Origin: Prochlorococcus marinus XMU1419
GTDB lineage: Bacteria; Cyanobacteriota; Cyanobacteriia; PCC-6307; Cyanobiaceae
Reading direction: 5' to 3'
Length of the DNA: 64,000 bases
NCBI RefSeq assembly: GCF_017695955.1
Contig: NZ_JAAORO010000003.1
Location: 248,001-312,000 of the forward strand
The notes under the pieces: model-generated
What the model saw: only the letters and a program-made list of their open reading frames with translations
Database searches by the model: none
Told to the model about the DNA's origin: nothing
Translations under genes and position numbers: made by a program
Shown: positions 47,034 to 48,863 of the stretch, one piece after another
How positions within the stretch are numbered: the stretch's first letter is position 1
Layout: every line of letters starts with the position of its first letter

Positions 47034-47198
47034 ATGAAACTCACTACTCCATTCAATGCTCTCAGAAATGCGACTTCAGATATCTGGAGAATGCATGATT
47101 TCAATTATCAATTACCCAAAAAAGAATTAAAAAAATATTGGGATCAAGAATGCGTAGCGCATCCTACTCATAGTCATTGCAAACTTTATTGTGATTAA
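47034..47198 (+). CDS. 54-residue microprotein with CP12-like cysteine loop
   Basis: ATG at 47034 preceded by CAAGGAGGTTTT, a strong ribosome site. C-terminus: KKYWDQECVAHPTHSHCKLY then CD. The C-x8-C spacing with Pro at the fourth position after the first Cys is that of the CP12 C-terminal loop; the third Cys three residues on is extra. The paralogue is at 48291. A role is not established. Confidence 0.6.
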   Translation: MKLTTPFNALRNATSDIWRMHDFNYQLPKKELKKYWDQECVAHPTHSHCKLYCD

Positions 47199-47284
47199 TA
47201 TCCAATCTATTTTAAGTGTTCTTACCATTGATTTTTATATTAAATCCTTACTAAAACTCAGTTTTTAAAAAGGAGGAAAAGTAG

Positions 47285-47385
47285 ATGACCAATTTAAGTT
47301 TAGAAATTATTTTTGGATAATCTTAATTGCATATCTTGGATTAAGGTTGAATCAAACTTGGAATGCCTACAAACAACAATATTAA
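47285..47385 (+). pseudogene. frameshifted copy of the microprotein at 48530
   Basis: ATG at 47285 after AAAAGGAGGAAAAG. The frame runs TNLSLEIIFG then stops at 47318-47320. Adding one T in the TTTTT run would continue as FWIILIAYLGLRLNQTWNAY, matching the intact 33-residue paralogue; this copy is 101 bases against 102. A one-base loss in a homopolymer is the simplest reading; a sequencing error is possible. Confidence 0.6.
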
Positions 47386-47577
47386 TAAGAGGACAAAATA
47401 AAACTACTAATGCAACTCACTTTTCAAACAAAGATTTGAAAGGTCTTGATTAGCTAAGAAAATGCAAACTTTAGAAAAAACTCTAAAAAAAATAAAACTT
47501 CACTACTTGCTCCTGTATAAAAAACTATAAAAAAAGTTCACTTTTTCTTATAAATATTTACTTTTATAATTAAGAAT

Positions 47578-47847
47578 TTATCGTTTCGATGCTATTAATT
47601 TTAAAAGTTCAGTTTGAATTTCAGAATTTTTAGCTATGGAAGATACACAAGCTAATGCTGAACTTGCAGATAATCCAAAAGCACCTGAGACAAATAACAC
47701 ATCTGGTCTCGCGTAGGGTTTATTAAATTCAGTCAAGGAGAATATTATTGTCCCAATAGAGAAAACAGCTCCTGAAATACTTATAAAATCGGTAACCAAA
47801 CTAATCTTTGATTTCTTTTTAGATGCTTCTTCAATTTGCGCTTTCAT
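47578..47847 (-). CDS. 89-residue membrane protein
   Basis: A charged start (KAQIEEASKKKSKISLVTDF) is followed by two helices (SISGAVFSIGTIIFSL and DVLFVSGAFGLSASSALACV). A short helical tail (NSEIQTELLKLIASKR) ends it. Not recognised. Confidence 0.6.
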   Translation of the reverse strand: MKAQIEEASKKKSKISLVTDFISISGAVFSIGTIIFSLTEFNKPYARPDVLFVSGAFGLSASSALACVSSIAKNSEIQTELLKLIASKR

Positions 47848-47923
47848 TTGAATTAAGAAATTATTTATTTTATTTTACTCTCCAATTTAAAATTGATTTC
47901 TTCCCAAGAGACTTATCTACCAC

Positions 47924-48076
47924 TTATTTCCTTCCCAACATCCAAATTTTTTTTGAATCTCCATACTTTTTCGTAATCTCTAAAGTTATTGGGTCCATAT
48001 CGAGCCTGAACCAAGAAAGAAAATCGGCTGGTTTTTGAACTCGTAAAAGATACAAGTCTTGCGATTTACTAGGATC
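47924..48076 (-). pseudogene. fragment of the pilin-like protein at 56463
   Basis: The minus frame reads SQDLYLLRVQKPADFLSWFR and LDMDPITLEITKKYGDSKKI. This matches the C-terminal part of the protein at 56463 (WYLLRVEKPAFYFTWFRLDM, DPITGEVTKTCGDSTKVGC), but the Cys codons and the last residues are changed. There is no start and nothing of the N-terminal 145 residues. Confidence 0.7.
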
Positions 48077-48290
48077 TCAAGGATTTGTAATTTTCTATCC
48101 AAACTTTACCCAGACTTTTTTAAATTTAAAATTAAAACCTTTGAAGATATTTTTCTGATTATTATTTTTACTTTGAGAGTTTTTTTTGATCCTTAATCCG
48201 TACAATTTTGTTCCTCTAACCGCACACATAAAACTTGAGATTAACTATTCAAATGAATTAGAACATAATTGTAGGCAAGAGGTAAGTCTT

Positions 48291-48443
48291 ATGGCACTAA
48301 ACGACACATTCACTATCCAAGAGATGGACTTGGATACAAAAAATCTTTCATACGATATTAAAACAAAAGAACTTAAAGCTTACTGGAATAAAGAATGCGA
48401 ACAGCATCCTAGTAATAACCATTGCAAAATTTTTTGCGATTAA
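48291..48443 (+). CDS. 50-residue microprotein with CP12-like cysteine loop
   Basis: ATG at 48291 after AAGAGGTAAG. The protein ends KELKAYWNKECEQHPSNNHC then KIFCD. It shares KELK-x-YW-x-x-EC-x-x-HP-x3-HCK-x2-CD with the one at 47034, while the N-termini differ. The C-x8-C loop recalls CP12, the GAPDH/PRK inhibitor, without the rest of CP12. A longer frame back to 48186 lacks support. Confidence 0.6.
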   Translation: MALNDTFTIQEMDLDTKNLSYDIKTKELKAYWNKECEQHPSNNHCKIFCD

Positions 48444-48529
48444 TACTCGAACTTTTTAAGTATTCTTACGCTTGATTTTTATATATTATCCGTACTAAAG
48501 AATAGTTAGCTAGAAAGGAGGACAAGCAG

Positions 48530-48631
48530 ATGACCAATTTAATTATAGAGATTTTATTTTGGGCAATTTTAATTTCTTATTTAGGATTAAGGTTTTCTAT
48601 AACCCGAGATAGCTTTAAAAAACAGTATTAA
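48530..48631 (+). CDS. 33-residue membrane microprotein
   Basis: ATG at 48530 after AAAGGAGGACAAG, a strong ribosome site. TNLIIEILFWAILISYLGLR then FSITRDSFKKQY. Intact paralogue of the frameshifted copy at 47285; both follow a CP12-loop gene by about 87 bases. Confidence 0.6.
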   Translation: MTNLIIEILFWAILISYLGLRFSITRDSFKKQY

Positions 48632-48644
48632 CTAGGAGGAAGAA

Positions 48645-48743
48645 ATGAAACTTCAAACACAATTAACAGTTCCGAACAAAGCTCTGCGTGATCTTGATTA
48701 TGTTAATAAAGTAGAAGTCTTAGAAGAAACTTTTAAGAGATAA
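48645..48743 (+). CDS. 32-residue microprotein
   Basis: ATG at 48645 after TAGGAGGAAGAA. KLQTQLTVPNKALRDLDYVN then KVEVLEETFKR. Its opening recalls MKLTTPFNALR of the gene at 47034. A degraded similar sequence lies near 47410-47455. Confidence 0.45.
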   Translation: MKLQTQLTVPNKALRDLDYVNKVEVLEETFKR

Positions 48744-48863
48744 TATCAAGATCACCCAACTTAAGAAGATTATCTAGTTTGTTGTAACTGACTATTCATT
48801 AATCAGTTTTCATAGCTTATAAATTCTAAAAATATAAATAAATTTTTAATGAGAGGTTTAACT

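Follow-up and report, generated by a model that had tools for sequence, protein, structure and literature searches.

The stretch of DNA analysed here, termed the window, comprises 64,000 nucleotides of a Prochlorococcus marinus genome of 1.64 Mb that holds a single full CP12. Inspection of its open reading frames revealed two paralogous cassettes of small genes, at 47034-47500 and 48291-48791, with the following features.

47034..47198, + strand: class B Cys-tail microprotein, 54 aa, intact, ending ..YWDQECVAHPTHSHCKLYCD (ORF and relatives)
47285..47386, + strand: membrane microprotein gene of copy 1, a frameshifted pseudogene (four in-frame stops; spacing 1245 to 1246)
~47409..47500, + strand: what is left of the third (class D) gene in copy 1, as pieces in three frames (repeat alignment and translation)
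48166..48290, + strand: 5' region of copy 2, conserved (column identity averaging 0.91-1.00 in bins of 25 nt) and apparently untranslated
48291..48443, + strand: class C Cys-tail microprotein, 50 aa, intact, ending ..YWNKECEQHPSNNHCKIFCD (dN/dS 0.16; last 21 codons 0.083)
48444..48529, + strand: conserved spacer upstream of the membrane gene (repeat alignment and related loci)
48530..48631, + strand: microprotein of 33 aa with one hydrophobic stretch, intact (dN/dS 0.21)
48645..48791, + strand: class D Cys-tail pseudogene (two in-frame stops; both loop Cys lost)

A preliminary description had drawn attention to two gene pairs, 47034/47285 and 48291/48530, and to a C-terminal signature common to their first members. 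Both pairs were found as described, and the signature, KELK-x-YW-x2-EC-x2-HP-x3-HCK-x2-CD, was borne out in ORFs 47034-47198 and 48291-48443. Pairwise alignment of the two proteins gave a BLOSUM62 score of 118, a value that none of 20,000 shuffles reached (shuffle maximum 57). Additionally, the pattern C-x3-P-x4-C-x2-[YFC]-x(1-2)-stop occurred twice when the window was read in all six frames; 200 codon-shuffled windows gave a mean of 0.01. The C-terminal motif shared by both window proteins is far beyond chance.

At the DNA level the repeat between the copies spans ~330 bp in pieces, nearly in register (spacing 1244-1248), and takes in part of the third gene. Identity was 75% over the end of the first genes and the bases just downstream, 85% over the spacer between the first gene and the membrane gene, 84% and 71% over two parts of the membrane genes, and 74% along one segment of the third gene. 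In copy 1 the membrane partner (47285) is indeed broken, with four in-frame stops and a shift of spacing from 1245 to 1246 inside the gene. The notion of a duplicated cassette holds in that two paralogous cassettes are present, but each originally comprised three genes rather than two and the duplication is not fresh. In the original order a Cys-tail microprotein came first, then the 33-aa membrane microprotein, then a further Cys-tail microprotein. This third gene is broken in both window copies; intact cassettes of both types are present elsewhere. ORF 48645-48743 is the truncated front of the class D protein, which in other strains has 48 aa and ends like ..ECxDYPTKEDCLVCCN; in the window it reads MKLQTQLTV..FKR*YQDHPT*EDYLVCCN* (asterisks, stops). 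We assign the window one B-type and one C-type cassette because both types of three-gene unit are seen at related loci. A recent duplication was considered and rejected, since both cassette types occur in other strains; comparison across these strains indicates an old paralogous pair.

The cassette architecture was followed in related genomes. A script parsed 24 of 29 class C loci (five were dropped), and in all 24 the class C gene is accompanied by an intact MTNL.. membrane microprotein at 238-239 nt and a full-length class D ORF at 353-356 nt from the class C start. The C-P-C core of class D is substituted in three loci (L005, L021 and L026), the class C gene of L009 lacks the Pro, and that of L028 carries a stop. 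Downstream of class B, an intact membrane gene lies at 85-88 nt in 14 of 17 cases; in seven of the 17, by a pattern-based count, a full-length class D ORF is present as well, at 196-202 nt. A Prochlorococcus-type cassette also occurs on a contig labelled as a Crocinitomicaceae MAG (L132), likely through contamination. Separately, at four loci of another genus (L074, L075, L077 and L087) a 60-aa TM-like protein, MDPxDPA.., lies 15 nt after the Cys-tail gene; it is unlike the 33-aa membrane microprotein of the window cassettes.

Coding status was assessed by pairwise Nei-Gojobori sums. The dN/dS was 0.163 for class C (25 genes), 0.213 for the membrane gene (25 genes) and 0.203 for class D (23 genes, the window and locus L024 being left out); therefore, all three genes are or were coding. 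Within class C, constraint is strongest over the tail, with 0.083 for the last 21 codons and 0.249 for the N-terminal part. An in-frame reading of the 37 codons that precede class C gave 0.970, and the ATG at 48291 is therefore the most likely class C start. By the same value over its last 37 codons (0.97), translation of an 88-aa frame upstream of 48291 was rejected. Within the conserved 5' region, the 25-nt block at 48191-48215 shows, after rounding, a mean column identity of 1.00 across 25 aligned loci and is a possible regulatory element. The cassette region gave no Rfam match to a known structured RNA up to E 1, and the spacer at 48444-48529 no unusual RNA fold (z -1.02). A promoter scan returned seven promoter-like sites against 11.9 in shuffles, with no terminators. 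The membrane microprotein had no Pfam match and no phage match, and its weak matches consisted of one PHROG at E 0.24 and one PDB sequence at E 9.2.

On motif and profile searches, the Cys-tail genes of the window are members of a multicopy, apparently unnamed family of microproteins of ~48-72 aa in marine picocyanobacteria. The N-terminal module varies, frequently reading MKLxTPF.., and the C-terminal motif is YW-x2-EC-x3-P-x4-C-[KL]-x-[YF]-[CDE]-x. A search with window protein P0002 gave matches at E<=1 in all 101 genomes sampled from the genus, with best E values <1e-4 in 98 and 0.0089 to 0.047 in three. Among 250 genomes of the window's family, profile A2, built from the three-Cys members of the window's genus alone, matched 94 at E<=0.1, in 30 of 50 genera, with as many as 10 places in one genome when broken ones are counted. 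Profile A3, built from 20 relatives, matched 115 of 160 genomes at E<=0.01, weak matches possibly including CP12 tails. The window proteins had no convincing match among Pfam, NCBIfam or PHROG models, and no such family was named in the literature searched. Calvin-cycle genes were not seen by eye beside family members in the inspected ORF lists.

The tip of the tail varies with lineage. In other genera of the family Cyanobiaceae, members end YDD, YEG, YEV, YEN and the like with only two tail Cys, and the penultimate D/E is kept in 26 of 27 distinct tails. In the window's genus this acid is absent from 78 of 80 distinct tails, 73 having Cys instead and five stopping after the Y; the exceptions are YED (L091) and YDG (L089). 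From 80 genome-contig loci, 69 were parsed and 11 dropped for the class A count: a class A paralog without the last two residues was found in 52 of the 69, and in the remaining 17, which are related to class B, these residues are recovered (YCD in 14, and YYD, YDD or YDG in three). Class A genes, at loci such as L206, L155 and L152, lie just upstream of a rhomboid-like membrane protein gene (a name read from sequence) in 49 of 52 cases. Near class A, mostly upstream, is also a gene for an iron-binding protein, which we take to be FutA-like (42 of 52 loci). Tail-less MKLxTPF relatives occur in the source genome itself (L213, C3:408297-408410) and in phage P-SSM2 (L126, 1501-1599); thus, the module also exists without the Cys tail.

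Members of the family are also carried by T4-like cyanophages. P-TIM68, whose host is MIT9515, encodes a full-length member annotated as a hypothetical protein that adjoins a putative heat-shock gene, and separately encodes CP12. Four IMG/VR loci gave family matches (L208-L211). On phage contig L209 the member gene follows an hsp20-like ORF, on L210 it precedes purM-like and DNA polymerase ORFs (these names being read from sequence), and L211 gave the same match. L208 has T4-like phage genes next to a class A gene, together with an ORF that looks fused, and is probably a chimeric assembly. In P-SSM2 and in marine virus AG-345-E02, the tail-less N-terminal module sits at the hsp20 site. A first viral scan with profile A2 had returned 77 pattern matches, none of which was confirmed.

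The preliminary description had likened the tail to the C-terminal loop of CP12, which grips GAPDH. Searched against 177,635 PDB sequences, profile A3 placed CP12 in all of its best seven positions (E from 4.5e-5 to 0.042, with 1.2 for the next sequence), and the stricter profile A6, made without weakly matching relatives, found three sequences at E<=10, all of them CP12 (E 0.013-0.068). Profile A2 found no PDB sequence. The invariant columns of A3 are C, P and C only, in the C-x8-C arrangement with a central Pro. When the whole family (112 regex matches minus 11 CP12 sequences) was aligned by hhalign with 30 picocyanobacterial CP12, a probability of 88 and an E of 3.1e-6 were obtained over 19 columns ending at both C-termini; none of 150 full and none of 150 tail-only column shuffles reached the real score. 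Split by type, the two-Cys members gave E 2.9e-7 and the three-Cys members E 0.0049, and the MALND, CCN, MKLFN and MKLTT groups of the window's genus gave E 0.0027-0.094. Because eight relatives had entered through weak matches, the alignment was repeated on a strict set without them; probability was 41 and E 2.8e-4, with 0 of 200 shuffles reaching it.

The window proteins did not match Pfam CP12 (PF02672), and in simple pairwise alignment with the genome's own CP12 a register other than the tail was chosen. Among nine relatives, Pfam CP12 was the sole match, below threshold, for three, each ending at profile position 70/70; the best score among the nine, 16.3 bits, lies below the gathering threshold of 22.7 bits. 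Three others match unrelated Pfam families at equally weak E (0.034-0.34) and three match none. Of 146 genomes of the class searched, 114 match; all eight fetched loci from outside the family hold CP12, seven with AWD. The CP12 N-terminal half (AWD_VEE or its picocyanobacterial equivalent) is present in the 30 extracted CP12 and was not seen by eye in the listed members. We refer to phrog_2603 as cyanophage CP12 because it matches the CP12 ORF of P-TIM68; this profile ranks P0002 second in its own genome, behind the true CP12, at E 0.014 (E 0.0014 for a two-Cys relative). Window protein P0001 had no PHROG match. Its AF2 model ends a helix two residues after Cys40; the model was given no weight because its confidence is low (pLDDT 68) and Foldseek matched no PDB structure to it.

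These profile comparisons argue that the likeness to the CP12 tail is real at the level of the family and runs through the two-Cys relatives; it is thus through intermediates that it reaches the window proteins. The CP12-loop reading is supported in part, by family-level profiles, and falls short for the window proteins taken singly, which are without a Pfam CP12 match and whose three-Cys profile finds nothing. A CP12-like tail at the extreme C-terminus of another body was found for the family and not for the three-Cys members alone; by membership, the family is not CP12. A convergent short Cys loop unrelated to CP12 would accommodate a match of only ~20 columns, the silence of A2 in the PDB and the failure of single window proteins to align their tails with their own CP12. 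Such convergence is hard to reconcile with the database-wide rank of CP12 for A3 and A6, the shuffle controls and the fact that both alignments end at the last residue, and we consider it improbable.

We propose that the C-terminal hairpin may derive from, or mimic, the GAPDH-binding tail of CP12. Since the tail resembles that by which CP12 grips its enzyme, the family may represent extra, specialised versions of the CP12 light-dark switch, and GAPDH is a plausible target. The genome's Gap2 keeps the stretches DRNP and SHRDLRRARAA and aligns over its full length with chain A of the S. elongatus entry 3b1j, which also holds CP12; we take these stretches to contain Arg77 and Ser188. In the two-Cys forms, oxidation would close the C-x8-C loop by a disulfide, the closed loop would admit the acidic tip to the NADP pocket of Gap2, in the manner of the CP12 tail and the GapB extension, and these proteins would act as extra redox-gated inhibitors or CP12 competitors without the PRK-binding half. 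To this reading, of diverged CP12-tail redox microproteins whose two-Cys forms serve in this manner, we assign a probability of about 0.5. For the window's genus, where the tip has mostly diverged, it would mean a loop still gated by redox, with binding that may be weaker, through the thiol or to another partner.

In both window proteins the penultimate acid of CP12 is replaced by Cys, which weighs against a simple block of the CP12 kind; a repurposed or thiol-based action may apply instead. On the former account the tail is of CP12 descent, GAPDH binding has been lost in the window's genus, and the hairpin has been repurposed as a disulfide or thiol device for another redox partner or, with its membrane neighbour, for a membrane site. 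The absence of the acid from 78 of 80 tails of the genus, as against its retention in 26 of 27 elsewhere, is in keeping with such a loss, as are the 52 of 69 loci at which class A lacks the last two residues, the membrane microprotein after class C and most class B genes, and the other TM-like protein 15 nt after four members of another genus. The class C tail as a whole is under strong constraint, which speaks against this account, and we regard it as somewhat unlikely. On the thiol-based account, a radiation of thiol-tipped CP12-tail microproteins in the window's genus and in cyanophages could hold GAPDH in a mixed disulfide or modulate it during light stress; we offer this as a speculative and rather unlikely possibility. 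A metal-binding tail, with Zn, Cu or Fe held by the Cys/His cluster C-x2-H-P-x3-H-C-x3-C, is prompted by the tails of the two window proteins, each with three Cys and two His, and by the FutA-like gene beside class A in 42 of 52 loci. Across the family neither the His residues nor the third Cys is conserved, and C, P and C alone, the CP12 signature, are invariant in A3; we give metal binding little credence.

Returning to the CP12-tail reading, if several free proteins of this kind act on Gap2, control of carbon fixation in Prochlorococcus would be layered, and phages would exploit more of that control than the recognised CP12 gene. Were the tips thiol-bearing effectors, several parallel redox valves on carbon fixation would stand beside CP12. 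Should GAPDH not be bound at all, the family would still be conserved, multicopy and without a convincing match in Pfam, NCBIfam or PHROGs, and its tail illustrates how a docking motif may move between proteins.

Among the closest known systems, CP12 itself is of small size and has, like the two-Cys members, the C-terminal loop C-x3-P-x4-C-x2-Y-[DE]-x-stop. The family differs from it in being multicopy, in lacking a CP12-like N-terminal half and in carrying a Trp shortly before the first Cys. Its members in the window's genus, moreover, mostly have Cys in place of the penultimate acid or have lost the last two residues. In oxidised AtCP12 a short helix ends two residues past the first C-terminal Cys and is followed by a loop (PMC10253348), the penultimate acid of algal CP12 contacts a GAPDH arginine (PMC4436894), and Arg77 and Ser188 are named as NADP-phosphate-binding residues of GAPDH (PMC3838966). 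A disulfide closes in the tails of CP12 and GapB, with the acidic tip near an NADP-binding arginine (PMC4436894, PMC3838966). GapB and ADK3 are given as proteins bearing CP12 tails in PMC9406205, and PMC3906501 and PMC4436894 present the C-terminal extension of plant GapB as a CP12-derived tail that works without the rest of CP12. The GapB tail is fused to GAPDH, whereas that of the window type sits on a free microprotein. Cyanophage CP12 (phrog_2603) is, like the family, phage-borne and has a tail that ends at the same residues; it is a full CP12, unlike the microprotein, and P-TIM68 has both.
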